Shown: in pieces, positions 4,392-40,810 of the stretch | Layout: each line of letters starts with the position of its first letter | Numbering within the stretch: position 1 is the stretch's first letter | From: Natronococcus sp. AD-5 | Lineage (GTDB): Archaea; Halobacteriota; Halobacteria; Halobacteriales; Natrialbaceae | Assembly: GCF_030734285.1 (NCBI RefSeq) | Contig: NZ_CP132295.1 | Coordinates: forward strand, 434,001-498,000 | Length of the DNA stretch: 64,000 nt | Direction: 5' to 3' | Translations under genes and position numbers: made by a program | Notes under the pieces: model-generated | The model's database searches: none | Seen by the model: the letters and a program-made list of their open reading frames with translations, nothing else | What the model was told of the DNA's origin: nothing

Positions 4392-4484
4392 ATGCGAGTG
4401 CTGGTCCCGTACGACCCACAGGAGCCGAAGACGAGGCTCGCCGACGCGCTTTCGGCCGACGAGCGGCGCGCGTTCGCTGCGGCT
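4392..4484 (+). pseudogene. cofC: cofC N-terminal fragment
   Basis: Thirty-one codons from ATG 4392 read MRVLVPYDPQEPKTRLADAL then SADERRAFAAA. This matches the start of 2-phospho-L-lactate guanylyltransferase CofC, an enzyme of coenzyme F420 synthesis. The similarity ends at about 4484, where an opposite-strand npdG fragment begins. It is only about 15% of a normal CofC. The frame upstream (RRVTVQGDA) faintly resembles the start of PdxT (VVAVQGD), which would fit the pdxS relic, but that is too short to call. Confidence 0.65.
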
Positions 4485-4485
4485 T

Positions 4486-4676
4486 CTTCAGTGGCAACGC
4501 CTGCGACGTCGGCGTTCGCACCGCGTTCTGAAAGCAGCGTGTTGTAGACGTTCGCCCGTCGTTTTGCTTTCTCGGGATCTCTCGATCCGATTACGACGGT
4601 GTGTTCGGTATCGCGCCCAGCGCAGCGCGAGTCCTTCGCCGATATCTCCGGTTCAGCCGCGGAGTGCGATCTCCAT
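4486..4676 (-). pseudogene. npdG: npdG (NADPH:F420 reductase) N-terminal fragment
   Basis: On the minus strand from ATG 4676 the sequence reads MEIALRG, a TGA stop, then TGDIGEGLALRW, a frame change, then RDTEHTVVIGSRDPEKAKRR. This is the Rossmann nucleotide-binding start of F420-dependent NADP reductase. It carries one nonsense codon and one frameshift and ends abruptly at the cofC fragment, tail to tail. Clearly non-functional. Confidence 0.7.
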
Positions 4677-13975: not shown

Positions 13976-15208
13976 TCAATCGGAGGCTTGCTTGCTCACG
14001 GCCCGAAGGAGGACCTCTGCGCCCGTGACGACGTCTTCCCACTCGGTGTACTCGCTCTCTCGGTGGCTGATCCCGTCGACGCTCGGAACGAAGATCATGC
14101 TCGTCGGGGTGATCTTATTGAGATAATTGGCATCGTGACCCGCACCGCTAACCAATCGCGTGTACTCGCAGCCGGCGTCCTCGGCTGCTTCCGCGACGGT
14201 CTCGATACAGTCGTCGTCGAACGGATCGGCATCGACCCGCATGATCTCTTCGAACTCGTACTCGAGCCCCTCCCGTTCGGCAGCCCATTCGATTTCGCTC
14301 TGGATACGTTCGACGGCCGCGTCGACGACGGCATTGTCGTACGAGCGGAAGTCGAGGGTGAACTCGACGCGTTCGGGGATGACGTTGATCGCGTTCGGCC
14401 ACACGTCGACGCTCCCGACCGTCCCGACGAGATCTGTTCCTTCGGCGGCGGTGACCTCGCGGACGGCCTTCGTCACGTCCGCCGTCGCGACGAACGCGTC
14501 GTGGCGCATGTTCATCGGCGTCGGGCCAGCGTGGTTCGCCTGCCCCTCGAACGAGACGTTCATCCACGAAAACCCGAAGACGCCCTCGACGACACCGACG
14601 CTCAGGTCCGCCCGTTCCAGGAACGGCCCTTGTTCGACGTGAACTTCGAAGTAGCAGTGGAGATCGTCCGGTTCACAGGGTTCATCGCCCTTATACCCGA
14701 TCCGTTCGAGTTCGTCACCGAAACGGTTCCCGTTCTTGTCCGCTCGATCGTAAGCGTACTCGAGATCGAAGACGCCAGTATAAACGCCGCTACCGAGCAT
14801 GTCCGGCTGGAACCGAACGCCTTCCTCGTTGCTCCAGGCGACGATTTCGAGCGGGCGCTTCGTTTCGCCGTCGGCATCGTTGAACGCTTCGACGACCTCG
14901 AGAGCGCTGAGAACCCCGACGACGCCGTCGTACCGGCCGCCGTTGTACTGACTGTCGATGTGAGAACCGAACAGGACCGCGTCTGCCTCCGGATTAGTTC
15001 CTTCCTGGCGCCCGAAGATGTTCCCCATTTCGTCGACGCGCACCTCGAGGTCCGCTTCGCGGAACCACTCGACCAGCGTGTCGCGCGCCGCTTTGTTCTC
15101 GTCGGAGAGGGCCGGTCGGTTCACACCGCCGGCGTCGGTAGCGCCGATCTCGTTGAACTCGTCGAACCGTTCGCGGAACCGACTCTCGTCTATCGTATAC
15201 TCTGTCAT
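13976..15208 (-). CDS. M20-family allantoate/N-carbamoyl-L-amino acid amidohydrolase
   Basis: A 410-residue Zn-dependent hydrolase of the AllC/HyuC group. It shows FGSHIDSQYNGGRYDGVVG (His and Asp metal ligands), WSNEEGVRF (bridging Glu pair), HVEQGPFLE and the dimerisation-domain motif NHAGPTPM. HxEQG and NHAG are diagnostic for allantoate amidohydrolase, ureidoglycolate amidohydrolase and N-carbamoylase. It hydrolyses a ureido group to ammonia and CO2. With the allantoinase-like gene at 23000, allantoate is the preferred guess. The start ATG 15208 is well placed before the divergent gene at 15334. Confidence 0.9.
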   Translation of the reverse strand: MTEYTIDESRFRERFDEFNEIGATDAGGVNRPALSDENKAARDTLVEWFREADLEVRVDEMGNIFGRQEGTNPEADAVLFGSHIDSQYNGGRYDGVVGVLSALEVVEAFNDADGETKRPLEIVAWSNEEGVRFQPDMLGSGVYTGVFDLEYAYDRADKNGNRFGDELERIGYKGDEPCEPDDLHCYFEVHVEQGPFLERADLSVGVVEGVFGFSWMNVSFEGQANHAGPTPMNMRHDAFVATADVTKAVREVTAAEGTDLVGTVGSVDVWPNAINVIPERVEFTLDFRSYDNAVVDAAVERIQSEIEWAAEREGLEYEFEEIMRVDADPFDDDCIETVAEAAEDAGCEYTRLVSGAGHDANYLNKITPTSMIFVPSVDGISHRESEYTEWEDVVTGAEVLLRAVSKQASD

Positions 15209-15333
15209 ACCTCACCACACCTAGCCCACGGTCTTTAACATTCCGGCGTACCACGGTGTGGCCACCCGTTCGGCGCGACAAATAGAGTGGGGCGACCAAA
15301 AGAGTCAAACCGCCAATACACGATACACCTGGT

Positions 15334-16971
15334 ATGTCGTCTACTAGCACTGCATCGATAGAGTTCCGTAATGCGACGGTCCTCGACGGGAGCGGCGGGG
15401 ACGCGTACATCGCCAGCGTCCTCGTCGACGACGGTCGAATACGTCGAATCGGAACCGATCCTGCCGGTGCCGACCGAAAGATCGATCTCGGCGGATCGTA
15501 TCTCGCGCCGGGATTTATCGACATGCACGCTCACTCGGAATTACGCCTGTTCGACAAACCCGAGGCAGCCGAAAAAGTGACCCAGGGAGTAACGACGGAA
15601 GTCCTCGGTCAGGACGGTGTCAGCGTCGCCCCCGTTCCAGCAGGGCTCAAAGAAGAGTGGGCCAACCGAGTTCAGTCGCTCGACGGCACGATGGAAGACG
15701 CCTGGCCGTGGACGTCCGTCCGTGGATTTCTCGGCGAGTTGAGTGACGCGGAGCCAGCCGTCAACTGCGCCTTCTACGCCCCACACGGAAACCTCCGCTC
15801 GCTACTGGCCGGTTTCGAAGACCGCCCGCTCGACGCCGCCGAACTCGAATCCCTTCAGGACGAACTGGCGTCCGCACTGGCCGACGGAGCGTTCGGAATG
15901 TCGAAGGGAATGATCTACCCGCCGAGTTCGTACGGTCACGACCCCGAACTGGAAGCACTTGCGGCGGTCCTCGGCGATCACAACTCGTTCATGATCTCGC
16001 ACGTCTGGAACGAAACCGATTACGTCGTCGAATCCATCGAGCGGTATCTCGACATCTGTCATCGCGGCGGCTGCGACGCTCACGTCTCTCATCTCAAAAT
16101 CGGCGGGAAGCAGAACTGGGACTCCTCCGAAGAGGTCCTCTCGCTGTTCGACGACGCCGAAGCACGCGGACAGAACGTCTCCTTCGACCAGTACCCCTAT
16201 ACCGCCGGTTCGACGATGCTCACGGCGCTGTTACCCCCCTGGGCGCGTCAGGGAGACTCGGAGGCGATACTCGAGCGTCTCCGCGACGAGTCGGTACGAG
16301 ATCGAATCGCCACGGCCATCGACGAACCGGGTGACTGGGAGAACCTCGCCCGGGCGGCGGGCACGTGGGATAACATTTTGATCACACAGACGGCGAGCGG
16401 CCGGCATCAGGGGGAAACGATCGCGGAAATAGCGGCCCGCCGTAATTGCGCCCCGGTCCAAGTGATGTGTGACGTGCTCGTCGAAGAGGACCTCGACGCG
16501 ACGATGGCCGACTTCATCATGTCCGAGGACGATATCGAGTGCTTTCTCGCCGATCCGCGAGGAACGTTCTGCAGCGACGGCATCTTCGGCGGCAAACCCC
16601 ATCCGCGCGCGATCGGCACGTTCCCGCGTATCCTCGAACGATACGTTCGTGACCGCGGCGTGCTGACGCCTGAGCTCGCGGTACACAAGGCGGCAGGTCG
16701 ACCGGCGGACCTTCTCGGACTGCCCGACCGGGGATACGTGGCGGAAGGCTACGTGGCCGACCTCGTCGCGTTCGATCTCGACGATATCGTCGAACGACCG
16801 ACGTACGAGAACCCGAACCAGCTGACCGAGGATTTCGACTACGTCCTCGTCGGTGGCGAGATCGCGGTCGAAGACGGCGAAACGGCGGGCAGGCGGAACG
16901 GATCCGTGCTCCGATCGGCCGAGGAGTGGGACGGCCGGACCCGTCCGTCCCGTTCCCGCAGCGCGTTCTGA
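15334..16971 (+). CDS. N-acyl-D-amino-acid deacylase family amidohydrolase
   Basis: A 545-residue member of the D-aminoacylase/dihydroorotase-like family. N-terminal NATVLDGSGGDAYIASV and PGFIDMHAHSE (His-x-His) are followed by VTQGVTTEVLGQDGVS with the conserved glutamate/Cys-equivalent region, HVSHLKIGG, and a late CSDGIFGGKPHPRAIGTFPR block that carries the catalytic Asp. It removes acyl (or carbamoyl-like) groups from D-amino acids or related amides. It is divergent from the M20 amidohydrolase, sharing a 125-bp intergenic region. A hydantoin-derived N-carbamoyl-D-amino acid is a possible substrate (inference). Confidence 0.88.
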   Translation: MSSTSTASIEFRNATVLDGSGGDAYIASVLVDDGRIRRIGTDPAGADRKIDLGGSYLAPGFIDMHAHSELRLFDKPEAAEKVTQGVTTEVLGQDGVSVAPVPAGLKEEWANRVQSLDGTMEDAWPWTSVRGFLGELSDAEPAVNCAFYAPHGNLRSLLAGFEDRPLDAAELESLQDELASALADGAFGMSKGMIYPPSSYGHDPELEALAAVLGDHNSFMISHVWNETDYVVESIERYLDICHRGGCDAHVSHLKIGGKQNWDSSEEVLSLFDDAEARGQNVSFDQYPYTAGSTMLTALLPPWARQGDSEAILERLRDESVRDRIATAIDEPGDWENLARAAGTWDNILITQTASGRHQGETIAEIAARRNCAPVQVMCDVLVEEDLDATMADFIMSEDDIECFLADPRGTFCSDGIFGGKPHPRAIGTFPRILERYVRDRGVLTPELAVHKAAGRPADLLGLPDRGYVAEGYVADLVAFDLDDIVERPTYENPNQLTEDFDYVLVGGEIAVEDGETAGRRNGSVLRSAEEWDGRTRPSRSRSAF

Positions 16972-17118
16972 GCACGACGTCGTACCCGGGCGGGTGGTAA
17001 AGTGATACCCGATCTACAACGTATCGGCGCCGGTAGAAAGAGACGATCGTTCCCAGCGAACCGCCGCGAAGATCGCTTCGCGGATCCGTTCTAAGAGGTG
17101 TGTCACCTTGCCCCGTAG

Positions 17119-17127
17119 TTATATATC
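17119..17127 (+). promoter_or_regulatory. TATA box deciding start of LLM oxidoreductase
   Basis: TTATATATC at 17119-17127 predicts transcription near 17148, downstream of the first in-frame start at 17108. This makes ATG 17156 the likely start, with a leader of about eight bases. Confidence 0.6.
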
Positions 17128-17155
17128 ACCGGCTATTCTATTCGGAAACGACTCC

Positions 17156-18193
17156 ATGAGCTACAGTCACGAGACGGGCGATGGGAGCGACAGAGTCGGG
17201 CTATACCTTCAGGACAAACACCCGATTCGGGAGAATATGGAACTGGTGCAGTACGCCGAAGAGCAGGGCTTCAGCGAAGTCTGGCAGGCAGAATCTCGCC
17301 TCGCACGGGACGCCATCACGCCGATGGCTGCCTACGCCGCTGTCACCGACGATATCAAAATCGGCTCCGGCGTCATCAACAACTGGACCCGAAATACGGC
17401 CCTCATCGCACAGACGATGAGTACCCTCGAAGAGTTAGCCGGGCCGAACCGCGTCCTCTGCGGGATCGGCGCCTGGTGGGATCCCCTGGCGGAGAAAGTC
17501 GGCGTCGATCGCTCGAATGCACCCCGTGCGATGCGTGAGTGCGTTGAAGTAACGAAACGTCTGCTCGACATGGAGAACGTAACGTACGATGGCGAGCACG
17601 TCAACGTTCGTGACATCGAACTCGACGTCGTCCACGGCGACTCCGGGCCCAGAACGGTTCCAGTCTACGTCGGCGCGACCGGCTTCAAGATGATGGAGTT
17701 GACCGGGCATTTCGCGGACGGTGCACTCATGAATTATCTCGTCAGCCCCGAGTACAATCAGAAGGCCCTCGACGCGCTCGAAACCGGTGCGGAACGATCG
17801 GATCGGTCCCTCGACGAGATCGATCGACCGCAGCTGATCGTCTGTTCGATGGATCACGACGAGGAAAAAGCGCTGGATAATGCGCGGGAACTCATCACGC
17901 AGTATCTCGGGCAGCAGCCGCACATCATGAAAGCCAGCGGCGTGAGCCAAGATCTGATCGACGAGGTCGGCGACGCCATCGGCGGCTGGCCGGCTGACAA
18001 GGACGTTATTCAGAAGGGAATGGAGTACATTCCGGACGAGGTCGTCCACAAACTGACGGCGAGCGGTCGACCCGAACAGTGTCGCGAGAAGGTCCGCGAG
18101 TACGCCGACAATGGATGTCTCTGTCCGATCCTGTATCCCCTCGGCGATGATCCACAGCTCATGATCGACGAGTTCGCAGACGGCTACCGCTGA
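17156..18193 (+). CDS. LLM class flavin/F420-dependent oxidoreductase
   Basis: A 345-residue luciferase-like monooxygenase fold protein in the methylenetetrahydromethanopterin reductase-like group. It has [21 protein letters not shown] at the N-terminus, [14 protein letters not shown], a [15 protein letters not shown] loop and [17 protein letters not shown]. Haloarchaea use F420 with many of these proteins; FMN is the alternative. Substrate unknown. The upstream TATA fixes the start at 17156 rather than 17108. It stands alone between the deacylase and convergent threonine synthase. Confidence 0.85.
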
Positions 18194-18423
18194 CGAAACT
18201 CGGACGCTGCGACGGGACAACAGGGGCGTTCACGTCGCGATCCGCGATCCTCTTGCTCTCCTTCCGTTCGGTTGTCGGTCGGAGCAGCGTCGGTTCGTCG
18301 CAACCAACCCTGGCTTCCGGGGAGGCTACCGCTCGGTTCGCTGATCGACGGTGATTGCGATCTCGACCGGGGTTGCAACCGAAAACACGAGACAAAGTGA
18401 CAGTGACAGGTTTATCGCGCCGC

Positions 18424-19683
18424 CTAGTCGTCGGCGGCAGCCGACTCCGGGACGTCGAAGCGCTGCTGGACCTCCGCGATGTCCGGGTCGATCCGCATCA
18501 CGTCTCCGGTCGCCTGTTTCGCGCTCTCGGTGTCTTTGAGCCCGAACCCGGTCGAGTTGACGACGACCGTTTCGTCCGATTCGATGATTCCCTCTTCGAT
18601 CGCACGCTTGACGCCAGCGAGCGGCGTCGCACCGGCCGGCTCCGTGTAGATTCCTTCGGTACTTCCCAGCAGTTTTTCGGCCTCGAGAATCTCTTCGTCT
18701 CCGACTAGCAGCGAGGTCCCGCCGCTCTCCTCGAGCGCACGGCAGGCTTTGATCGTGTTGCGCGGCCGACCGACGGCGATACTATCGGCGAGCGTTTCGG
18801 CGATATCGTCGACGTCGTCGTGGTCGTGGAACGCGTCGTGAATAGCGGACGCTCCTTCGGCCTGCACGCCGAGCATCTTCGGCGTGTCTTCCACGTAGTC
18901 GAGCTCGTAGAACTCGCGGAACCCTTTCCAGGCGCCGGCGATCGTACACCCGTCGCCCATCGAGAAGACGATCCAGTCCGGAACCTCGCCGCGGACTTTC
19001 GACTGTTCGGCGAGTTCGTGTCCGACGGTGCGCTTGCCCTCGACCTGAAACGGGTTGATCGCGGCGTTACGGTTGTACCATCCGTACTCGTCCGTGACTT
19101 CGACGCTCAGGTCGTACGCCTCGTCGTACGATCCGTTGACAGCTAGGACGTCGGCGCCGTAGACGAGCGGCTGTGCGAGTTTTCCGGCAGGGGCGTCGCC
19201 GGGAACGAAGATTCGGCAGTCGAGACCGCCGCGAGCGGCGTAGCCCGAAAGCGAGGCCGCGGCGTTACCGGTCGACGCACAGGTGATGATATCCCGGCCC
19301 GCGTGTTTCGCTTTCGTTACCGCGACGGAACTCGCCCGGTCTTTGAAACAGCCGGTCGGATTCCGGCCGTCGTCCTTGACGAGCGTCTCGACGCCGAGTT
19401 CGTCGCTGAGATTCGGCGTGTCGAAGAGATCCGTCCCGCCCTCGTTGAGCGTTACGACGTCGGCCTCGTCGTCGACGGGAAGGAACGCCTCGTACTTCCA
19501 CTGGCTATCGATGGTGCCGTCGAGTTCGGCGTCGAAATCGTCGTGGATGACGTCGTAATCGTACTTCACTTCGAGGATACCCGATACCCCTTCCTCTTCC
19601 GGACAGGTGTAGATGATCTGTTCCGGATCGTACTCCTCACCACAAATCGTACACTCAAGTGTGGTAACATGGTCCATCGCCAT
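18424..19683 (-). CDS. thrC: Threonine synthase
   Basis: A PLP enzyme converting O-phosphohomoserine to threonine, 419 residues. An N-terminal zinc-ribbon-like CTICGEEY...YTCPEEE is typical of archaeal ThrC. The PLP lysine lies in RNPTGCFKDRASS (TGCFKDR replaces the commoner TGSFKDR), followed by TCASTGNAAASLSGYAARGG and the phosphate-binding region. A minus-strand TATA (AGTATTTATG, about 19706-19715) puts transcription at about 19684, so leaderless translation from ATG 19683 (or 19677) is likely. It is a housekeeping gene inside the catabolic region. Confidence 0.92.
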   Translation of the reverse strand: MAMDHVTTLECTICGEEYDPEQIIYTCPEEEGVSGILEVKYDYDVIHDDFDAELDGTIDSQWKYEAFLPVDDEADVVTLNEGGTDLFDTPNLSDELGVETLVKDDGRNPTGCFKDRASSVAVTKAKHAGRDIITCASTGNAAASLSGYAARGGLDCRIFVPGDAPAGKLAQPLVYGADVLAVNGSYDEAYDLSVEVTDEYGWYNRNAAINPFQVEGKRTVGHELAEQSKVRGEVPDWIVFSMGDGCTIAGAWKGFREFYELDYVEDTPKMLGVQAEGASAIHDAFHDHDDVDDIAETLADSIAVGRPRNTIKACRALEESGGTSLLVGDEEILEAEKLLGSTEGIYTEPAGATPLAGVKRAIEEGIIESDETVVVNSTGFGLKDTESAKQATGDVMRIDPDIAEVQQRFDVPESAAADD

Positions 19684-19767
19684 GGCAAGAACAAAGAAGG
19701 CGGCTCACATAAATACTCGCTTCCACATCCCCGTGTGGCTGTGTGCCAACGAGATCTGCGGTCGATG

Positions 19768-21047
19768 CGGGACGTTCGAGAACGCCCTCGAGAAGGCCCG
19801 AAACGGTGAGCCGCTCACCGTCATCGATGGAGTCGAGTTGCTCACGACCGGCACGGAGACGACCGGGATCGATCGAAACGGAAAGAGGCGGTGCTCCAGG
19901 CGGGGGATTCCCGTCGCGAATTGGCCGTCGGTGAAGAAGTCACCTTCGTCGCGGCGATCAACAATAACGTCACGACGGCGTGTAACACCGGATGCTCGTT
20001 CTGTAATTTCAAAGATCCGCACGGCGATTCGAGACGGCACACGACGGCGCTCACGAGGGCTTCACGAAAACGCTCGCCGGGTCGCGCGATATCGTCCGCG
20101 ATGCCGTCTCCCGTGGCATCTATGAGGTCTGTTCTGTGAGCGGACTCCACCCAGCGCTCGCACTAACCACCAACCATCGGGAGATTCTCGAGGCGAGCAC
20201 CGTGCCAGATCTCGATTACAAATCGCCGTCCGTTTACGAGGTGGATCCGGGAACGTACGTCGAACAGCTTGAGGCGATGAGCGTCGACGGCGTCCACGTT
20301 CACCCGATGACGCCCGAAGAAGCAACTCACGCCCGCCGGGGACCTCGTGGTCGCTCGAGAACGTGTACGCAACGTGTACGGAAGCGGGGCTCGATAGCGT
20401 CCCCGGGACGGCTGCGGAGATTCTGGTCGACGAAGTTCGCGGCGTCATCTGTCCGGGAAAGATTACGACCGCGGAGTGACTCGAAGCGATAGAGGCGGCT
20501 GCAGCCGTCGGCCTCCCGATGACGGCGACGATGATGTACGGTCACGTCGAAAACGAAGTGCGCCGGGTTATGCACCTGAAACGGATCAGGATCTCCACGA
20601 TCGGACTGAAACAGTACGGAGTTCGTCCCGCTCTCGTTCGTCCACCACAACACTCCGCTCGCCACATCCGGTCTCGTCGACTCCGGCGCCAGCGCGGCCG
20701 AGGACGAACTGGTTATCGCCGTCTCCCGGCTGTTTCTCGATAACGTCGAGAACATCCGGTCCTCCTGGGTGAAATACGGTGACGAGCAGGGATTGAAGCT
20801 GTTGAACTGCGGAGCAAACGATTTCACGGGTACGCTGCTCTCCGAGGAGATCACCAAGCGTGCCGGCGGCAGCCACGGAGAGTTTCGATCGTTTCAGGAG
20901 CACGTGGACACGATCACCGCGATCGGCCGCGTGCCCGTCGAACGGTCGACCGATTATCGCAAAACGCGACGAATCGACCCGTCAGAATCACCGATCGGAC
21001 CACTTCTCGGACCAGCCGCCGGCAGGACGCCGCTATTCGAGTCCTGA
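19768..21047 (+). pseudogene. cofH: cofH pseudogene (F420 biosynthesis radical SAM)
   Basis: Across this stretch the three plus frames piece together an almost full-length CofH, the radical SAM subunit of FO (7,8-didemethyl-8-hydroxy-5-deazariboflavin) synthase. Pieces in order are TFENALEKARNGEPLTV, EEVTFVAAINNNVTTACNTG with the C-x3-C-x2-C cluster motif (ACNTGCSFCNF), [46 protein letters not shown] then a TGA near 20477, TATMMYGHVENEV, and GLKLLNCGANDFTGTLLSEE to the C-terminus. At least five frame changes plus the nonsense codon separate them. A working copy must exist elsewhere if the cell makes F420. Confidence 0.88.
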
Positions 21048-21247
21048 CGATACCGTTGTCTCGTTGAAAACGAGACACACGCAGCGAGATCCCCACAGAT
21101 ACCGCCACACCGGCCACAATCGGCGCCACAGCACCGAATATTTATGGGCGATACTCCCATCACACCTGGTGGGTGCTAACTACCCACAAGAATCGGGGCG
21201 TGCGTAGCACGGTAGCTCGAAAAAGCCGGTTAGCACCGTGTATACCC

Positions 21248-22969
21248 ATGATTGGAAGACGACTCGCCACGACGGAAGCGGTCATCGTTCTCGTCAGCCC
21301 CGACAGCGGCGATGAATTAGCGACGATCGAACGATGGGGACGCGAGCACGAGATCCCCGTCCACGCGGTAGACGTGGGCGAAGATATCGATCCGGTCTAC
21401 AGTTCCGGAACGGAGTACCTCGGCGTCACCCTCGGTGGTGACGGGACCTACCTCGAGGGAGTCAGGCAATTCAGTCCCAAGCAAATTCCGATTCTCGGGA
21501 TCAACGCGGGTACTCTCGCGTTTCTCGCGAGTATCTCGCCGGCAGATCTCACCGGCGCACTGACCGAGGCCGTCACCGGCAAAGCGACGATCGATCAGCG
21601 CCAACAGCTGCATGTCGATGCCGACGGCGTCGATTGCACGGGTATCAACGACGTAATGATCGAGCACGTCCCGCCGGAAAATCCGGTCGATCGAAAGATT
21701 ACACGACTCGAGGTGTTCGCCGGGGAGGAATTCATCGGCCAGTACGAGGGGAGCGGACTCGCAGTCTCGACGCCGACCGGATCGACCGGCATCTCGCTAT
21801 CGGCCGGTGGGCCGATTCACTATCCGAAGAACAACGCGCCGCTCTAGATCGTGCCGCTTCACACCCATCGTCTCGGCGTACGCCCGCTCATCGTCGACGC
21901 GGACACGACCGTTCGCGTCGCCTCCGCCGGCGCAGCGAACCTGCTCGTCGACGGTGGCCGAGCCCAGACGACCCTGGCGGAGGACGCCATCGTCACGATA
22001 CGGGGCGCCGAGACGCCCGCCTACGTCGTCAACACGAGTTACGACGACGGCTTCTTCACCTCCGTGTCGGAGAAACTCGGCTGGGGTGTCCGCGATGGAA
22101 AAGACGACACGGGATCGGTGAAGGTGGGGATACGAGAGACCCAGACCCGGCGATCGGACGCTCTCCTCGATCGAGCGAGACAGATCGCTAACGAAGCCGC
22201 CCGCGCTGCCGGCCCCCCGCTTCGCGAACTCCACGGACAAACGGAGTCGATCGAATTCAAGACGGGCAAGTCGGATATCGTTACCGAGGCGGACTACAAA
22301 GCCGAGAACATCATCACGACGGTCATCGAAAGCGAGTTCCCCGATCACGGTATTCGTTCGGAAGAGACCGTTCAGCGAGCGGGAACGAGCGACTACACCT
22401 GGTCGGTCGACCCACTGGATGGGAGCGGGAACTTCGCCCACGGAAATCCCAACTACTCGATTTCGATCGCACTTCTCGAGGACGACGATCCCGTCGTCGG
22501 GGTGGTGTATGCCCCTGAAACGGACGAGGTGTTCAGCGCGATAAGCGGCGAGCAAGCGACGCTCGACGGTAAACCCCTCTCGACGACGGACCGAACGTCT
22601 CCCGACGAATGTATGCTCCTCTCGGGGTACGATCCGGACGGCACCTTCCTCTCCCACAGCTATCACGAGGCCCGGGGGGTTCGCCGTCTCGGGTCTGCCG
22701 CGCTGAATCTCTGCTACCTCGCAGCCGGCAGTGCGGACGCCGTCTGGGAGTACGACACCTACCCGTGGGACGTCAACGCGGGACTCGTCATTGCCCGGGC
22801 CGCGGGCGCGACCGTGACGAACGCCAGCGGCGAGCCTTACGATCCGAATACCGATCTCGACGCGAGAAATGAACTGGTCGGTTCGAACGGTCCGCTTCAC
22901 AAGACGCTGCTCTCCCACCTCGATAACGCGGGGACGCTCCAGACTTCGGCCACGAGCGCGACCGACTGA
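21248..22969 (+). pseudogene. NAD kinase-inositol monophosphatase fusion interrupted by TAG
   Basis: A single frame encodes an NAD kinase domain with LGVTLGGDGTYLEGV (GGDGT motif) and STPTGSTGISLSAGGPI. It is interrupted by TAG at 21845-21847 just before the NAD kinase C-terminal strands (IVPLHTHRLGVRPLIV), then continues as an inositol monophosphatase/NADP phosphatase domain with WSVDPLDGSGNFAHGNPNYS and WDVNAGLVIARAAGA. One nonsense change (for example CAG to TAG) explains it. The two parts could still be made as 199 residues from ATG 21248 and 372 residues from GTG 21851, but the first lacks the end of the NAD kinase fold. MJ0917 of Methanocaldococcus is a known kinase/phosphatase fusion with the domains in the opposite order. 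Confidence 0.75.
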
Positions 22970-22999
22970 CTGCTCGGCAGAATCCGGCCGTTCGTTCCG

Positions 23000-24355
23000 T
23001 TACTCGACCCCCGCGTCGGGCCCGCGTGAAAGGTACGATCCATCGCCCGCCTCTGTGACCACGTCGTGATCTCGTGCGGCGATATCGCCGTCAGTGATGA
23101 CCGTATCGACCCGCCAGTTCCAGCTCCGGCCTTCGAACGGGGTCCACCCGCCGTTGTACGTCAAGTCGTCCGCCGAGACCTCGTACGGTTCGTTCCGGAG
23201 CAGAACGAGATCAGCGTCCGTCCCTACCGCGAGCGATCCCTTCCGTGGGAAGATACCCGCCTCACGTGCGGGTCGCGCACAGACGAGTTCGAGGAGCCGC
23301 GACCACGATATCCGCCCCTCGTGGACCCCTTTGCTCGCGAGAAACTCGAGCATCGTCTCGACACCGGGTAATCCAGCGTACGGCTCCCAGATGTCGTCCC
23401 ACCCGCGTTCGCGGTCTGCGCGGTGCGTCGGGAAGTGATCCGTCGCGATGAGGTCGATGGTTCCGTCCCGTACCGCCTGCCAGAGCCGCTCGACTTCCGC
23501 GGCGGATTTCAGGCTCGGATTGACTTTCAAAAACGGACCGCGGGTCTCGGTATCGTCGGCGGAGAACGCGAGGTACTGCGGACACGTTTCGAGCGTGACC
23601 GGGACGTTCCCACGAGACTTGAATCGATCGGCGACCGCAGCGCCGCTCCCGCTCGAGATGTGGACGACGTGAAGGGGGCAGCCCGCGTACTCAGCGAACC
23701 GTCCCATCCGACCGATCGCCTCGAGTTCCGCCTCGAGCGGGCGCGACCCGGGATAGAGTTCCGGCTCTGTACCGTCGAGACGCTCTCGCGCGCGATCCAG
23801 TATCGCCTGTGACTCGCAGTGAACCCGGACCGAGCCGCCAGCGGCACCCACGGCGCTCATCAGGTCGAGAATCACGTCGTCGTCCGCGCGATACGGGTCC
23901 GCTGTGAACGTCTTGAACTCCGGAACGCCGACCTCGAGGATCCCCTCGACGTCGACCTCGGCCTCCTGAAAGTTCCCGGCGACGAGCCCGAAGTCGACGT
24001 GCGCCTGATCCTCGCAACACGCTCGTTTCTCGCGGAGCTCGGAGGGCGTGGTGACGGGCGTTTGCGTCGGCAATTCGACTACGGTCGTCGCCCCCCCGGC
24101 AACGGCGCTTTCGGTCTGGGAGGCGAAGTTGATGTCCTCCGGAAACAACGCCGGATCGTGCATGTGCGTGTGGACGTCGATCGCGCCCGGGATCGCGACC
24201 ATCCCGTCGGCCTGTACGACCGACTCGGCGTCGGCCCCCGACACGGAGAGTTCCGAGCCAACATCCGCGATCGATCCGCTCTCGATCGCGATTGAGCCGG
24301 GTTGGATCCCCGCGTTCGTTACGATACGAGCGTTCTCCACGAAACAATCCGTCAT
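23000..24355 (-). CDS. Allantoinase/hydantoinase-like cyclic amidohydrolase
   Basis: A 451-residue dihydroorotase-superfamily enzyme that opens a cyclic ureide. Metal ligands are seen in IDVHTHMHDPALFPED, the bridging lysine in VPEFKTFTAD, then RVHCES, LHVVHISSG and IATDHFPTHRADR. The C-terminal NGGWTPFEGR resembles the YxGWTPFEG tail of allantoinases. With the AllC-like M20 enzyme and xanthine dehydrogenases nearby, allantoin to allantoate is the best-supported role; hydantoin or dihydropyrimidine are alternatives. The start ATG 24355 is divergent from the next gene. Confidence 0.85.
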   Translation of the reverse strand: MTDCFVENARIVTNAGIQPGSIAIESGSIADVGSELSVSGADAESVVQADGMVAIPGAIDVHTHMHDPALFPEDINFASQTESAVAGGATTVVELPTQTPVTTPSELREKRACCEDQAHVDFGLVAGNFQEAEVDVEGILEVGVPEFKTFTADPYRADDDVILDLMSAVGAAGGSVRVHCESQAILDRARERLDGTEPELYPGSRPLEAELEAIGRMGRFAEYAGCPLHVVHISSGSGAAVADRFKSRGNVPVTLETCPQYLAFSADDTETRGPFLKVNPSLKSAAEVERLWQAVRDGTIDLIATDHFPTHRADRERGWDDIWEPYAGLPGVETMLEFLASKGVHEGRISWSRLLELVCARPAREAGIFPRKGSLAVGTDADLVLLRNEPYEVSADDLTYNGGWTPFEGRSWNWRVDTVITDGDIAARDHDVVTEAGDGSYLSRGPDAGVE

Positions 24356-24517
24356 GGTTCACACACTCTCGCGGGACTCTCATAACAGTTCAGGTGCGCG
24401 CCACGCCGGCAGCGCTGCGTTCCCTACGAGGCTCCCCGCAGGTTGTCCCTGACTCCGTACCGGGTTGCTGGGCGGATCAGAGGTAGTTTTTTAGTGGTTG
24501 ACAGAGACTCACACATT

Positions 24518-25825
24518 GTGATACTCAACGCTGGTACGCTCGTCACGATGAACGACGAGCGCGAGGTTAGAGAAGAAGTACACGTCGTCGTCGAAGGCGG
24601 CGAAATCGTCGAAATCGCCGATGGGTACGCGTCCGGTGATACCGCCGTCGACGCGCGTTCCGAAGTCGTCATTCCCGGACTGGTCAACTGCCACACGCAC
24701 ATGTACGCATTGCCGATTCGAGGTGCTCCGCTCGCGGTATCGCCACGAAGCTTCTACGAGGCGTTGGTCGATATCTGGTGGCAAATAGACGAGGCGTTCA
24801 CGACGGAGGACGCACGCCTGTCGGCGATCGGTTCGTGCGAGGAGATGCTCGAGGGAGGGGTTACAGCCTTCTGCGACAATTACTCCGGTCCGAACACCCT
24901 TCCTGGCGCGTTGGATGCCGTTGCCGACGGCGTCGCTCAGACGCCGATACGCGGCCTGATTGCGTTCGAGACCACGGCCCGTAACTCTCGGGACGAAGCG
25001 ATCGAGGGACTCGACGAGAATCGACGGTTCATCCGCGAGAAAGAAGGCGGGTACGATCGGGTGAGCGGCCACTACTGCCTTCATACGCTGTTTACCAACA
25101 CGGAAGAAATGGTTCGCGAATGTGTCAACCGAGCGGCTGCCGACGATCGGCCGATTCAAATCCACCTCGAAGAGGGATTAGTCGACGTCCACAAATCCAT
25201 CGAGGAGTACGGTGAGCGCCCTGTCCACGCGCTCGAGTCGATGGGATTTTTCGACGCCGACGTCATCGCCGCACACTGTGTCCACGCGACCGAAGAGGAG
25301 ATTGAGGTCCTCGGCGAGAACGACGTCGCTGTGGCACACAACCCGTACTCGAATACGAACAACGCAGTCGGGATCGCGAACGTCGAGAAGATGCAAGAGG
25401 AAGGCGTGACGATCGGCATCGGCGGCGACGGATGGGACCCCGATATGTTCGAGACGATGCGGACGGCCGTCGGCATTCACAAATTGAAACGGAACGATCC
25501 GAGCGGGTTCGATATGGCGACCGCGCTGGAGTGGGCGACGATCGGGAGTGCAACCGTGATGGGGATGGAAGACCGGATCGGCAGTATCGAGGAAGGAAAG
25601 CGGGGTGACTTCGTTACTCTCGATCTCGGGCCGAATCCGATTCTTCGAGAGAGCGCTCCATACTACGTCGTCAGCGCAGCAAGTCAGGCAGATGTCACTC
25701 GGACGATTATCGACGGAGACACCGTCTACAAACGCGGCGACGGTGTTCACGCCGTCGATGCTGAAGATATGAAGGCGGTCGGCGCCGCGAGTGCCGAATT
25801 ATGGGAACGGATGGGTCTCGTATAG
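24518..25825 (+). CDS. Amidohydrolase (SsnA/chlorohydrolase-like)
   Basis: A roughly 435-residue subtype III amidohydrolase. It has PGLVNCHTHMYALPIRG (HxH), the active-site region GGVTAFCDNYSGPN, QIHLEEG, IAAHCVHATEEE and GIGGDGWDPDMF (Asp ligand), closest in layout to the putative aminohydrolase SsnA. An AT-rich TTTTTTAG near 24487-24494 points to a leaderless GTG start at 24518 (ILNAGTLVTMND). The open frame continues upstream without domain sequence. Natural substrate unknown; clustered with purine/ureide genes. Confidence 0.85.
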   Translation: MILNAGTLVTMNDEREVREEVHVVVEGGEIVEIADGYASGDTAVDARSEVVIPGLVNCHTHMYALPIRGAPLAVSPRSFYEALVDIWWQIDEAFTTEDARLSAIGSCEEMLEGGVTAFCDNYSGPNTLPGALDAVADGVAQTPIRGLIAFETTARNSRDEAIEGLDENRRFIREKEGGYDRVSGHYCLHTLFTNTEEMVRECVNRAAADDRPIQIHLEEGLVDVHKSIEEYGERPVHALESMGFFDADVIAAHCVHATEEEIEVLGENDVAVAHNPYSNTNNAVGIANVEKMQEEGVTIGIGGDGWDPDMFETMRTAVGIHKLKRNDPSGFDMATALEWATIGSATVMGMEDRIGSIEEGKRGDFVTLDLGPNPILRESAPYYVVSAASQADVTRTIIDGDTVYKRGDGVHAVDAEDMKAVGAASAELWERMGLV

Positions 25826-26307
25826 ACGCGAACACCAGCAGAACGAGACCACGCCTCCTCAGTTTCTGATTCTCGTCAGACGTAGTTCGGCACGTACGCT
25901 AGTTACAAACCCCTTCCTCTTCCGTTTGAGTTCCATTTTATCTGGGAGCCCGCACCGTTGACGTGGACGACGCGTACACATCAGCGGAAGCCGATCATGG
26001 AGATCAAGGCGGATCGGCGCTATGATACGGTGAGTCGCTCGTTCTCTCGCCCCGAACCCTGCGCCCCTAATTTCACACCCTAAGTGTGTATTTTCACGCT
26101 ATCGGTAAGAGGAACACACCGGCGGCCGTGTAATTCACACCCTAAGGGTGTAAATATATGGCCCGGGAGGGATCGACTCGTATTGCGAGAAGAGATACAA
26201 TATACACTACGGGTGTGAACATCGCACGCCTCCGCTACTATCGCGTCCGTCAACGAAGGGTACACGCATAGTCAGCCTTATAAGACTTCGGAGGCAACGT
26301 GCAGTAG
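25826..26307. other. Intergenic regulatory region before rdfA-like gene
   Basis: The first 240 bases contain no convincing gene; one short frame near 26000 (MEIKADRRYDTV) is too small to call. The second half holds three related palindromic sequences around a TATA box, described separately. Sequence between 26090 and 26310 is AT-richer than the flanks. Confidence 0.6.
26072..26219. promoter_or_regulatory. Three palindromic operator-like repeats
   Basis: TTCACACCCTAAGTGTGTA (26072-26090), TTCACACCCTAAGGGTGTAA (26134-26153) and ATACACTACGGGTGTGAA (26202-26219) share the dyad TTCACACCC/GGGTGTGAA. The middle copy abuts a TATA element (TAAATATATG, 26151-26160). The spacing (62 and 68 bp between starts, about six helical turns) would put a dimeric regulator on one face of the helix. 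It probably controls the gene pair beginning at 26308. Confidence 0.65.
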
Positions 26308-26958
26308 ATGTCCCCTGATCCGAGTTGCAAGGTCGACGCAACGATCGATCAGTACGGCCTCGAGACGGCTGATCCTCGCCACGAGTCGCTAAACGACGGA
26401 CTCCTCGCCCGATGGACAGGGGCTAACGGCCACTCCGACGTTGGATATCGGACGCTAACCGAGTGGTTCAACAAGCGGCTCCTCAAGCGCGTTTACGACG
26501 AGCACGGGCGTGAGGCGCTCGATGCGCAGATCGATGCTGACTACGAGGCGCTGACGTCCGACGACGGACTGATCCGCGAAGAGACGATCGAACGGCTCGA
26601 GACGGTTGGAATCGACGGAGCACAGCTACTCGATGACATGGTTTCCTGGGGGACGATGCGAACCCATTTGAACGAGTGTCTGGACGGCTCCAAAGAACGA
26701 TCGGACGCTCGGACGGACTGGGAACAGAACAGCATCAGCGCTGCGCGAGAGGTCGTCGTCGAAAAAACCGACGAAGCGCTTTCTTCGCTCGCAACTAAAG
26801 GGGAACTCGACGGCACGAGATCGTCGACCGTCGAGGTGCAGATTCACCTGCGGTGCGACAAGTGCCCCACGCGAGTTCCACTCGAGGTGGCACTCGAGCG
26901 CGGATACGTTTGCGATCAGCACAGCGATGCGACCAGCAGTTCGAATACACACTCATGA
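26308..26958 (+). CDS. RdfA-like protein (rod-determining factor family)
   Basis: A 216-residue haloarchaeal protein that resembles the family named rod-determining factor RdfA, tied to cell shape in Haloferax. The N-terminal half (SLNDGLLARWTG...YRTLTEWFNKRLLKRVY) looks like a helical DNA-associated domain. The C-terminus carries a zinc-binding pattern CDKC...YVCDQH (residues about 184-206). The stop overlaps the next start (ATGA at 26955), so it is co-translated with the SMC-related gene. The name rests on recalled family features and on the neighbour; function in this organism is inferred. Confidence 0.72.
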   Translation: MSPDPSCKVDATIDQYGLETADPRHESLNDGLLARWTGANGHSDVGYRTLTEWFNKRLLKRVYDEHGREALDAQIDADYEALTSDDGLIREETIERLETVGIDGAQLLDDMVSWGTMRTHLNECLDGSKERSDARTDWEQNSISAAREVVVEKTDEALSSLATKGELDGTRSSTVEVQIHLRCDKCPTRVPLEVALERGYVCDQHSDATSSSNTHS

Positions 26959-28745
26959 CCTGGAAAATCGATATCGAGAACATCGCCGGTATCTACGAGG
27001 GTAGTGCACAGCTCGAGCCGGGACTGAACGCGGTCAAAGGATCGAACTGGCAGGGGAAATCGAGTTTCATCGAAGCGATCAAAACCGGCCTCGGAACAGC
27101 AGCGACGCTCACCGAAGGGAAAGACCAGGGACGCGTCCACCTTCAGACTCCCGAGAAGAGTATTTCCGTCGAACTCAGCCGATCTAACGGTGTCGTCAGT
27201 GTCGAGGGAACCCCCTATCTCGAGAACGACTACGATGTCGCTCGCACCTCGTTATTTGCGTGCCTCGGCGAGAGAAACGAGATCCGTCAGGCCGTTCGAG
27301 AGGGGCGGAATCTGGAAGACGTTCTACTGCGCCCGCTCGATTTCCAGAACATCGATGCGCAGATCGCGGACCTCAAGAAAGAGCGCGAACAGATCGACTC
27401 AGAGCTCGCACAGGCGAAAGAAGCGCGCAAACGCCTTCCCGCGCTCCAAGAGCGAGTTACACAACTCGAACGTGAAGCCGAAGAACTCCGCAACCAACGG
27501 GAGGAACTGTCGGCACCTTCCGGTGCCAACGATGAGTCCGACTCCGTTCAAGGTGAGTTGAGCCAGGCGCAGGCGGATCGCAGTCAGGCGGAAAACCAGC
27601 TCGAGCGCTTGACCCAGACGATCGAGCGCATCGAAACCCGACTCGAGGAACGCCGCTCGGAACTCGAAGACATCGAAATCGACGAAGATGCGTCCGTCGA
27701 GTCCGAACTGAAAGACGCGCGCAAGCACCGTCAAGAGGTGAACCGGGCCCTCGAGGTGTTGCAAAACGTCTATTCGGCCAACGAGCTGGTCCTCGAGGAG
27801 AACCAGCTCGATCTCCTCACCGCCGTGAACCGTGAACTTACCGGCGATTCGGTCGTCTGCTGGACATGCGGTTCGGAGGTTTCCAGGTCGGCGCTCGAGG
27901 ATCGACTCGACGCGCTCGGGGAGAAGATCACCGAGAAGCGATCCCAACTCGAGACCCATCGTGATCGGGTCGAGGAACTCGAGGCGCGGCGCGAAGAACG
28001 GGCACAGATACGGCGACGGAAGCGAAATGTCGAGATGGAGATAGAGGATCTCGAAGAGAAACTCGCCGATCGAAAACAAAGTCTCGAGGAGACCCGCGAA
28101 CGCTTCGAACGCGCAGGTGAACGCGTCGAAACACTCAGCGAAACGGTCGATGAAACGGTCACCGAAATCACGGACATCGAGAGCGAAGTCAAGTATCGGG
28201 AAGCGGAGTTGAAAGACGCACGTAACGAACTCGAGGAACTCGAATCCCGCGCTGACCGGATCGATCTTCTGGAAGACGAGCGCGAAGAGATCCAGCACGA
28301 AATCGAGGATCTCAGGGATCGAAAACAGCAGATCAAGCGGCGAGCGCGCGACGAGTTCACCGAATCGATCCAGGAGATCAGCAAGCGATTCGAAACCGGA
28401 TTCGAATCGGCTCACCTAACCGGAGACTTCGATCTCGTTGTGGCACGAGAAGGACGCGAAGCCGACCTCGAGGCGCTCAGCGAAGGCGAACTCGAACTGA
28501 TCGGGTTCATCGCCGCACTTGCAGGGTACGAGTCGTTCGACGTCGAGGAGGCCGTGCCAATCATGCTCGTCGACGGTGTTGGGAGTCTTGCGGACGAAAA
28601 CCTGCAAACGCTCGTCGAGTATCTGGACGAACGAACGGAGTACCTCGTTTTTACAACGTATCCGGAACACACGACCAGTGACGGACAGACGATCGATCCA
28701 ACGACGTGGTCGGTTGCGAGCCAAGAAGCGATCGACGCTAACTGA
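26955..28745 (+). CDS. Archaea-specific SMC/Rad50-related ATPase
   Basis: A 596-residue SMC-like protein. Walker A is GSNWQGKSS near residues 28-36. A long charged coiled coil (about 130-290) is followed by a CWTCGSEV zinc-hook-like CxxC at about 302-305, a returning coiled coil to about 470, the signature LSEGELELIGFIAAL, and Walker B VPIMLVDGVGSLAD. The start at 26955 is preferred over 26853, which lies inside the upstream gene. It has the architecture of the archaea-specific SMC-related family that travels with RdfA. A role in chromosome or replicon organisation coupled to shape is inferred. Confidence 0.88.
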   Translation: MTWKIDIENIAGIYEGSAQLEPGLNAVKGSNWQGKSSFIEAIKTGLGTAATLTEGKDQGRVHLQTPEKSISVELSRSNGVVSVEGTPYLENDYDVARTSLFACLGERNEIRQAVREGRNLEDVLLRPLDFQNIDAQIADLKKEREQIDSELAQAKEARKRLPALQERVTQLEREAEELRNQREELSAPSGANDESDSVQGELSQAQADRSQAENQLERLTQTIERIETRLEERRSELEDIEIDEDASVESELKDARKHRQEVNRALEVLQNVYSANELVLEENQLDLLTAVNRELTGDSVVCWTCGSEVSRSALEDRLDALGEKITEKRSQLETHRDRVEELEARREERAQIRRRKRNVEMEIEDLEEKLADRKQSLEETRERFERAGERVETLSETVDETVTEITDIESEVKYREAELKDARNELEELESRADRIDLLEDEREEIQHEIEDLRDRKQQIKRRARDEFTESIQEISKRFETGFESAHLTGDFDLVVAREGREADLEALSEGELELIGFIAALAGYESFDVEEAVPIMLVDGVGSLADENLQTLVEYLDERTEYLVFTTYPEHTTSDGQTIDPTTWSVASQEAIDAN

Positions 28746-29278
28746 CGTTCACTCAGCCTACGCGGTTTCTCACGACGGCGTTGAAACGACAGATGCACAA
28801 CTGGGCGTTTCTCCTGTCGTTCCGTCACAGACGTGCACGAATTGCGACCGCCAGTCCAGTACCGTACGGAGACGGGCTGGTCCGCACGCGGCAGCTGTGG
28901 CCAAGAGCTGGATGAGTGACTACTCGGACCGAAGACTGGCAATCTCAAACTTTTGGCTTTGCTATCGGGTAATCAGTTCGACGGGTTGGACGCCCGTCAG
29001 CGTATCCTGAAGTCGGGAACGTCGACCACGATCGACGTATCCAACGCCCGTTCTGGATTGGAGTTTGAACGGGATGTCGGCGACAAGCCCGCCCCTTCGG
29101 CGTAGGCGGTTGACGCGTTCTCGCTCCCGAAGCGAGCCGTTTCCACTGGGAGGAAATACGACAGAGAGCCCGAGAGATTGGAGCGACGGACGCCGGTTAT
29201 TAACTGTACTGTCGACACCCTCCGGATGACACCGCAAACAAAGACTTTAACCTCATCTCGGCAGTATTTGAACTGTAG
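28746..29278. other. Gene-free stretch, possible decayed mobile-element tail
   Basis: About 530 bases without a supportable gene. A plus-strand frame from about 29037 (SNARSGLEFERDVGDKPAPSA then TAG) and a CTNCDRQ piece near 28833 are reminiscent of a transposase tail, but I cannot establish this. The last 40 bases hold a promoter-like ACTTTAACC (about 29244-29252) for the following gene. Confidence 0.3.
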
Positions 29279-29464
29279 ATGACATCTGATCCAAACGACG
29301 TAATAGACCTCGGAAACCGGCTTCTCAAGCAGTATCCGGACGCGTTTTCGACCGAGTTCAATACGAACAAAGAGGTTGTACAAAACATGACCTACGTGAG
29401 TTCGAATCGCCTCCGGAACCGTATCGCCGGGTACATCACCCGGCAAAAGCAGTCTCATCGATGA
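29279..29464 (+). CDS. eS17-like ribosomal protein paralogue 1
   Basis: Sixty-one residues with the eS17 (S17e) pattern: LGNRLLKQYPDAFSTEFNTN, then a middle helix, ending RLRNRIAGYITRQK. The length equals archaeal eS17 (about 60-65), but several usually constant positions differ (VSSNRLRNR where eS17 has xESKxVRNR). A TATA-like ACTTTAACC about 30 bases upstream suggests a near-leaderless transcript. It stands alone, away from ribosomal gene clusters and next to the RdfA/SMC pair. It may be an alternative small-subunit protein or have been repurposed. Confidence 0.78.
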   Translation: MTSDPNDVIDLGNRLLKQYPDAFSTEFNTNKEVVQNMTYVSSNRLRNRIAGYITRQKQSHR

Positions 29465-29627
29465 CCAGCGTCTATTTTACGCCGTTCCCATGACTCTCGA
29501 GGCGGCAGTCTCGTCTCGCGTGCCGTAGACACGTCGGTAGTGCAGTGGTTCTTCACGGTGCGACAGAGAGCCGGCACATATTGCTTGTACCGCCATGTCA
29601 TTGTGTGACACCGTGTAACTAAGTGGT

Positions 29628-30611
29628 ATGGCGATTAGCGCTGCGATTGGGGAGTTCGCCGAGATTCTCGCGCAACTCGAGCAAACCGACAAAAAGGTAC
29701 GAAGTGTAGCCCTTACGGGGACGGATACGGACGCGGAAGCGGTCACTGCACGCGTTGAGGTCGGCGTACCCGTAATCGAGGGCGAAAGCGTGAACGACGA
29801 CGTGACGATCGCGGCAACCGAGATAAAACTGACCGACGGCTACGTCGACGTCACGCTCGAATTTTCGATCCCGTCTTCCACTGGAGGAGTAGCGCTCGGG
29901 GAGAACCGATCTCGGTCACTCACGGGATTGGAGGATACCAAAACGGCCGAGTCATCCAACAGCGCCCCACCGTACAAAGACCCGAACGCGCTCGAGACGG
30001 TTTACGAGCAGCACGATTCGTTCTCTGAAATGACCGCGGCCCTCGGCGTCGACGTCACGTCTGAAACCGTCCGTCGATACATGGTCAAACACGGTATACA
30101 CGATCCAGGAGAAACAGGTAACGGATCGGCCGATCAGTCGACCGACGACGGCAAGAACCCGAGGAACGACGCCGCGATGTCGAGTAACGACAATTTCCCA
30201 GAGTCGTCAGACGGTGAATACGCTGCGGCACAAAGCGATGACGAGGCGTCAGCACCGTCAGATGGGGCGGTGACCGAGTCTCTCTCCGACGAAACCGAAA
30301 ATCCGGAGTATGGCGACCGCTCCGTGGCCGAGATCCTTACACAGAAAGATTCCAAAGGGGACGAACCGCTCATCGCCGACGGGGTCGGTGTTCCGCGAGA
30401 TCTGACCGTCTCAGATCTAACGAAGATACTCAACCGGTCTAGAACGGTCTCCGAAGTGAACCGTGCACTCGATCTCGATCACGATCAGACCCGGCGAGCT
30501 TTGAACGAGCTCGGAGTTATCGAGTTCGTCACCGGCCGACTCGCCGATCCTCGCGACGATATCACAATCGCTGAAGTGGAGCGCTGCATCCGAGAGGAAA
30601 ACATTCTCTAA
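29628..30611 (+). CDS. Unrecognised acidic protein with two HTH-like segments
   Basis: A 327-residue protein of unknown family. Residues 1-90 form a beta-rich block (ALTGTDTDAEAVTARVEVGVPV). Residues about 125-165 (ALETVYEQHDSFSEMTAAL then SETVRRYMVKHGI) look like a recognition-type helix-turn-helix. A 90-residue low-complexity acidic linker follows, and residues about 265-310 (LTVSDLTKILNRSRTVSEVN, DQTRRALNELGV) form a second HTH. No membrane segments. It may be a DNA-binding adaptor linked to the locus; that is inference. Confidence 0.7.
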   Translation: MAISAAIGEFAEILAQLEQTDKKVRSVALTGTDTDAEAVTARVEVGVPVIEGESVNDDVTIAATEIKLTDGYVDVTLEFSIPSSTGGVALGENRSRSLTGLEDTKTAESSNSAPPYKDPNALETVYEQHDSFSEMTAALGVDVTSETVRRYMVKHGIHDPGETGNGSADQSTDDGKNPRNDAAMSSNDNFPESSDGEYAAAQSDDEASAPSDGAVTESLSDETENPEYGDRSVAEILTQKDSKGDEPLIADGVGVPRDLTVSDLTKILNRSRTVSEVNRALDLDHDQTRRALNELGVIEFVTGRLADPRDDITIAEVERCIREENIL

Positions 30612-39630: not shown

Positions 39631-40665
39631 TTTGGGTGAATACGGGCCGTTTTCCTCGGGTCACGTCCGTTATCGTCGCGTCCGTGAGTGCGAGGAAGAC
39701 GTCATCGAGCGTCGGCGATCGAATGTCGAAGCCGGTAACGTCGAACCCCGCTTTCGTAAGATGCTCGATAATCTCGATTCCGAGTTGCCGTGCTCGAGAA
39801 GATTTCACGCTGAAGCCGTCTTCGGTGTGCCGTATCGTCTTCGCTTCGTCGGAACTCATCACGCCGGACGCTTCGGTAGCCGCGCGGGCGCGATCGAGGA
39901 GCGTTCCAGTCGAATCTTCGAAGCCGAGTTCCAGCACGTCCCCACCCGCCTGTGATTTGAGCTCGGCTGGCGAGCCGGTCGCAACGATCGTCCCATCGAG
40001 AATGACCGCCAGATTCGAACAGAGTGCGTCAGCCTCCTCTAGATGCTGCGTCGTGAGAAAGACGGTCGTTCCCCGTCGGTTGATCTCGCGGAAGTGCTCC
40101 CAAAGGCGGATGCGCGCCGCTGGATCAAGCCCAGCCGTCGGTTCGTCGAGCAAGACGATAGGCGGGTTGTGGACGAGAGCCGTCGCTGCGTCGAGACGCT
40201 TTTTTTGACCCCGGAGAGCGTGCCCGCGCGAAAATCCGTCTTTTCGGTAAGTCCGACGAGATCAAGCAGGTCGTCGATTCGGTCTGCGCGGTCCGATTTC
40301 GGAACGCCGTAGGAGCGGCAGGCGAAGCTTAGATTTTCGCGAACGGTGAGCGACGGGTCGATGCTCGCTTCCTGTGCCACGTACCCGATACGCTCACGTA
40401 TCGCCCTCGGCTCCGTTCGGGCGTCGTAGCCAGTAACCGTAATCTTCCCCTGCGTCGGTTGGAGAAGCGTCACGAGCGCCTTGATCATCGTCGTTTTCCC
40501 GGCCCCATTCGGCCCAAGAAAGCCGAAAAATTCGCCAGCGGGAATCGTGAGCGTGACGTCTCTTACCGCTTCGACGCCGTTCGAATACGTGAGCTCGACA
40601 CTGGTCGCTTCGATGGCCGGCGTTCGACCTCGGTCGGATTCGGGTATGCGTCGATAATCTTGCAT
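39593..40665 (-). pseudogene. ABC transporter ATPase (DrrA-like), frameshifted
   Basis: The N-terminal part from ATG 40665 holds Walker A (GPNGAGKTT) and the Q-loop region (IGYVAQEASIDPSLTVREN). The C-terminal part in another frame holds LLDEPTAGLDP, the H-loop (LTTQHLEEAD) and a DrrA-like tail (SPTLDDVFLALTD). The frame changes exactly in the LSGGQ signature at about 40200-40212: the minus strand reads TCCGGGGTCAAAAAAAGCG where one extra G would restore SGGQKKRLDAATAL. It is a single-base deletion next to an A7 run, so it is either a recent mutation or a sequencing error. Confidence 0.8.
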
Positions 40666-40810
40666 CGTGGCGATCACAGATTCTCGTAAGCGAGCGCGGA
40701 CTGTAATCGACCGCTCGAATATGTTTGCGCAAACGTTGGAGCAGATCCGGAACAAACACGCGGTAATGACGTTGTATAGCGATCATCAAGACGGGTAGGG
40801 ACAACGGAAC

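Follow-up and report, generated by a model that had tools for sequence, protein, structure and literature searches.

The interrupted gene and its neighbourhood

The window, i.e., the whole stretch of 64,000 nucleotides analysed here (G000:C2:434001-498000), lies on a secondary contig of 1.02 Mb in the 5.17 Mb, two-contig genome of Natronococcus sp. AD-5. Translation of positions 21248-22969 (+) gave a frame of 574 codons, which ends with TGA and contains a single internal stop, the TAG at 21845-21847 (codon 200). A second open reading frame of 372 amino acids starts in the same frame at GTG 21851. The part before the stop matched the Pfam family NAD_kinase and only positions 13-58 of the 126 positions of NAD_kinase_C, while the part behind it matched positions 4-268 of the 271 positions of Inositol_P; the stop falls, therefore, within the C-terminal domain of the kinase and not at a domain border, as had been proposed from the sequence alone. 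NAD kinases of known structure could be aligned with the frame no further than residue 197, and the NAD kinase profile NF002521, which matched with its positions 67-204 upstream, resumes right after the TAG (profile positions 210-288). The motif GGDGT, which we assign to the kinase, and the motifs DPLDG and WD, which we take to be those of the phosphatase, are all present; the residue following DPLDG is Ser, as in two of 84 other proteins (Thr in 81, Met in one). A kinase domain followed by Inositol_P is thus laid out in one frame, with homology throughout, and this frame is interrupted once. The features are listed in Table 1.

Table 1. Coordinates of the interrupted gene, of neighbouring gene remnants and of open cluster genes (positions in the window)
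Feature	Position	Strand	Basis
Gene, 5' part: NAD kinase N-terminal domain and start of the C-terminal domain; ends with the premature TAG	21248..21847	+	translation, domain matches, structure alignment
Premature TAG; CAG/CAA (Gln) or GAA/GAG (Glu) in 103 aligned loci	21845..21847	+	tblastn, alignment
Gene, 3' part, in frame: remainder of the kinase's C-terminal domain, a linker, near-complete inositol-monophosphatase-type domain	21851..22969	+	open reading frame, profiles
cofH remnant (F0 synthase subunit): five deletions of one base each, a TGA in register, 5' end aligning poorly	19772..21041	+	alignment
npdG remnant (NADPH-dependent F420 reductase): roughly 70 N-terminal residues only, with one stop and one frameshift	4469..4676	-	sequence comparison
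Threonine-synthase-like cluster gene, open, adjoining the cofH remnant	18424..19683	-	neighbourhood comparison, profiles
LLM-class cluster oxidoreductase, open, resembling F420-dependent families (below the cut-offs in the rows shown)	17108..18193	+	neighbourhood comparison, profiles
Cluster amidohydrolase, open, nearest to allantoinase/dihydropyrimidinase models (below cut-offs)	23000..24355	-	neighbourhood comparison, profiles

The gene stands in a conserved cluster. Around the 16 other members of its clade (see below), most of a shared set of neighbours was found in 15 neighbourhoods, comprising amidohydrolases, a carbamoylase-type Zn hydrolase, D-aminoacylase-like, threonine-synthase-like and allantoinase-like proteins, an LLM-class oxidoreductase, rdfA and an SMC-related protein. 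In G079 (L117), the one exception, none of the cluster neighbours was detected; in L044 only part of the set lies within the stretch read. Several of the records bearing the cluster are named plasmids, and the cluster is mostly plasmid-borne. It extends over positions 5383-28745 of the window and is represented in addition by loci L112-L116, L118-L121, L041-L046, L125 and L126. Xanthine-dehydrogenase-type genes (a label that we presume; one relative is annotated only as molybdopterin-binding) and a 5'-deoxyadenosine deaminase (over the cut-off) also belong to it, as do, in some records, cofH, cofG and npdG. Judged from its gene content, the cluster may encode a purine or ureide pathway linked to F420 and NADPH; a literature search found no title describing it.

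Two genes of the cluster are present in the window as remnants. The deletions in the cofH remnant were counted against three relatives, and its poorly aligned 5' end contains an additional single-base insertion and a 20-base gap. For cofG no match was obtained in the window or elsewhere on contig C2. Open copies of cofG (over the cut-off), of a cofH-like gene (310 bits against a cut-off of 374) and of an npdG-like gene are located on the large contig, C1. Among the 16 clade neighbourhoods, cofH is full length beside the gene in five (L041, L043, L118, L119 and L120), a short match occurs in two (L042 and L121), and in the other nine it was not found at E <=1e-5; it seems that the cofH gene of the cluster has been lost repeatedly. 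A search for npdG in 11 related genomes showed six with a full-length copy on the cluster contig in addition to a chromosome-type copy, one (G061) with a shortened copy of 77 residues on the cluster contig, and four with a single copy of about 60% identity. Elsewhere in the window, a gene for an ABC-transporter ATPase on the - strand (about 40224 and onwards; open reading frame 40039-40755) has a single frameshift, at about 40.2 kb, after the LSG signature and beside a run of seven A; this could be decay or a sequencing error.

Codon 200 in relatives and the intact paralogue

Homologous loci were compared by tblastn. The comparison comprised 104 loci, taken from two genome collections which overlap, such that some organisms are counted from both; a bacterial match confined to residues 374-523 (L111) was set aside. 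A single tblastn segment spans codon 200 in 103 of the 104 loci. The exception, L110, gave no alignment over this codon and is absent from the later protein alignment. Homology is therefore continuous over the TAG, and the two halves have not been juxtaposed by chance; this bears out the proposal that the frame runs from a kinase into an inositol-monophosphatase-type domain with nothing but the TAG intervening.

At codon 200 the 103 aligned loci have CAG (91), CAA (8), GAA (3) or GAG (1); a stop codon occurs in none of them. Once 17 duplicates and two short rows, L101 and L103 (the latter aligning as two overlapping pieces), had been taken out, 84 other proteins remained, of which 80 have Gln and four have Glu. 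The alignment with haloarchaeal homologues, which had been suggested as a check of this residue, thus shows a disabling lesion in the window where 103/103 loci have a sense codon and 84/84 non-redundant proteins have Gln or Glu; CAG is converted to TAG by one C-to-T transition. No gene boundary was found at codon 200 in any of the 103 loci, so that homologues encoded as two genes divided at this point, which would have spoken against a lesion, did not appear.

Further stops in the data set were inspected. Within the window-type clade, the alignments of the other 16 members contain none. An internal TAG in the copy of G003 was rejected, as translation shows a normal terminal stop, and stops in the alignments of six loci were found to be gene ends (residues 564-568) and not lesions. 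In L098 a secondary segment shows one stop (residue 299), whereas the main segment of this locus (1-562) is open.

The genome contains a second copy of the gene. It is located on the large contig (G000:C1:1687547-1689250), is an open fusion of 572 amino acids with about 60% identity to the window copy, and has Gln at the position of codon 200. In a family search, a match at E <=1e-60 was obtained in 63 of 125 genomes, and the fusion was also found in further haloarchaeal families; the haloarchaeal NAD kinase-inositol monophosphatase (IMPase) fusion is a widespread haloarchaeal family. In a quick tree of 85 proteins (LG+G4, with SH-aLRT support only) the window copy and 16 others formed one clade of 17 rows (SH-aLRT 100), while the C1 paralogue fell outside this clade and grouped with other Natronococcus copies. 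Another loss of a window-type gene was noticed in G025, which has a fragment (L136 8563-9125, -) covering residues 386-573, 78-84% identical and with a stop and a frameshift of its own, besides a full copy of the chromosome type. None of the cluster genes tested was found in the 18 kb around this fragment. The fragment and the TAG in the window, taken together, indicate that the window-type copy was probably lost at least twice.

Selection and the origin of the stop

A two-rate codon model was applied to eight sequences, comparing the window branch with the remainder. For the whole gene, omega was 0.068 on the window branch and 0.070 elsewhere (2dlnL 0.01); downstream of the stop the values were 0.076 and 0.074 (profile bound about 0.12), for the phosphatase part 0.069 and 0.075, and for the kinase remnant (residues 201-295) 0.062 and 0.055, with a wide profile bound of about 0.17. 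By simple mixing, the neutral share of the branch would be at most about 5% after the stop and at most about 12% in the kinase remnant. The window protein deviates at none of the 101 columns that are conserved at >=97%. Even the shattered cofH, used as a control, reached an omega of only 0.101 against 0.051 (2dlnL 4.46), presumably because most of its branch is older than the damage; the branch test is thus weak for recent events. As relaxed selection was not detected, either the stop arose recently or the gene is still functional, and the branch test does not tell these two apart; the result fits a recent stop, but also a working gene or a sequencing error.

Could the TAG be such an error, in a gene which is intact and has CAG at this position? 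Apart from the stop the gene is free of lesions and selection is not visibly relaxed, as would be expected, and the frameshift in the ATPase gene, at its run of seven A, could be an error within the same window. The TAG, in contrast, is a substitution outside homopolymers. Errors of this type would be unusual if the genome was sequenced with long reads. The lesions in cofH and npdG nearby are too numerous to be errors, and the remaining cluster genes that were tested align with their relatives over nearly their full length. An error is therefore considered unlikely.

Even less probable is a gene which is split and still works. Translation would stop at the TAG and begin anew at GTG 21851 or further along the frame, for instance at GTG 22118, and would yield a free phosphatase, with the pieces of the kinase perhaps reassembling. 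The GTG lies in frame, three bases past the TAG, the 372-residue frame opened by it carries a near-complete Inositol_P domain, and constraint persists downstream of the stop. Yet the codon GTG 21851 corresponds to a conserved Val, encoded by GTG, GTC, GTT or GTA in the seven relatives examined, and its occurrence is, therefore, no evidence for a start site; the cut lies within a domain, and not one of the 103 loci is divided there. Retention of the phosphatase alone also predicts a relaxed kinase remnant, whereas its omega (within the wide bound given above) is close to that of the other branches. The restart at this GTG, which was one of the two options of the sequence-only reading, has accordingly found no support. 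There is an equally small chance that the stop is tolerated because termination and re-initiation now provide two products from the locus, a fragment of the kinase and a phosphatase on its own, i.e., that a domain fission is under way; if so, the accessory copy, once a kinase-phosphatase, would have become solely a phosphatase.

Programmed readthrough or recoding of the TAG, for example as pyrrolysine, would restore the full protein and would agree with the constraint on both flanks of the stop. A search of the genome for PylS gave no match over the cut-off; there was one weak match (32.3 bits), of a kind present in 13 of 14 control genomes. No Rfam family reached its gathering score within positions 15000-30000, and TAG terminates four of the 28 open reading frames examined in the window, three of them in the cluster. 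A special genetic code has thus found no support, and recoding appears to be the most improbable of the explanations.

The window gene is in our opinion very probably a young pseudogene, derived from an accessory, cluster-borne copy of the haloarchaeal NAD kinase-IMPase fusion. This is based on the sense codon in all 103 loci, the open paralogue on C1, the decay of cofH and npdG in the neighbourhood and the parallel loss in G025; against it stands the lack of visible relaxation, since the same would be expected of a sequencing error or of a gene that works in split form or by readthrough. The other option of the earlier reading, a fresh nonsense mutation, has thereby been strengthened: the codon is sense, and mostly CAG, in every aligned locus, and the gene still looks constrained. 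A conserved Gln codon would have become TAG by the single transition mentioned, and the product would be a fragment of 199 residues, ending within the C-terminal domain of the kinase. Both the kinase and the phosphatase would then be lost from this locus, and the intact 572-residue paralogue may make the loss tolerable. The TAG and the losses of cofH, npdG and cofG may share one cause, namely that the F420/NADPH arm of the cluster is no longer in use in this strain. The futile-cycle switch that had been imagined for a kinase and a phosphatase acting on the same NADP is probably not provided by the window copy.

Taken alone, the TAG is of little import, as it most likely reflects the usual decay of a spare gene copy carried by a secondary contig. 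The analysis also points to a conserved and mostly plasmid-borne cluster that brings amidohydrolases together with genes for F420 and NADP; its cofH is frequently absent or damaged.

Comparison with known fusions and NAD kinases

The closest counterparts are the haloarchaeal NAD kinase-IMPase fusions themselves (e.g., WP_254525534.1 and WP_226777291.1, annotated as "inositol monophosphatase family protein"), which have the same domain order as the window gene and a similar length. The cluster-borne copies in the same family are 72-88% identical to the window gene and have most gene neighbours in common with it; the two annotated relatives on plasmids which were viewed bear no more specific name than this annotation. 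Unlike the rest of the family, with a sense codon in all 103 aligned loci, the window gene is interrupted by an in-frame TAG. In a literature search, no title dealing with a kinase-phosphatase fusion of haloarchaea was found.

The NCBIfam model NF010678 (bifunctional NADP phosphatase/NAD kinase), which we take to be linked to MJ0917, resembles the haloarchaeal fusion in that both domains are joined in one polypeptide, but the order is different: phosphatase then kinase in NF010678, kinase then phosphatase in the haloarchaeal fusion (e.g., L004:118-1836, -). Its cut-off of 493 bits was not reached by the intact paralogue (181.8) or by the two halves of the window gene (79.9 and 88.9). Due to the reversed order and the scores far below the cut-off, the haloarchaeal fusion was not classed in NF010678.

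Another comparison is offered by nadK1 and nadK2 of Haloferax volcanii, which have the NAD kinase domain in common with the window fusion; to our knowledge, neither nadK1 nor nadK2 has a phosphatase domain. In PMC8305020, both are given as probable NAD kinases and their energy source is termed unresolved. MJ0917 is named as a characterised archaeal bifunctional enzyme in PMC4518329. The reading of the window gene, which we take for a pseudogene of the family and not for a working member, is corrected to that of a widespread haloarchaeal fusion, in which the order of the domains is opposite to that of MJ0917.
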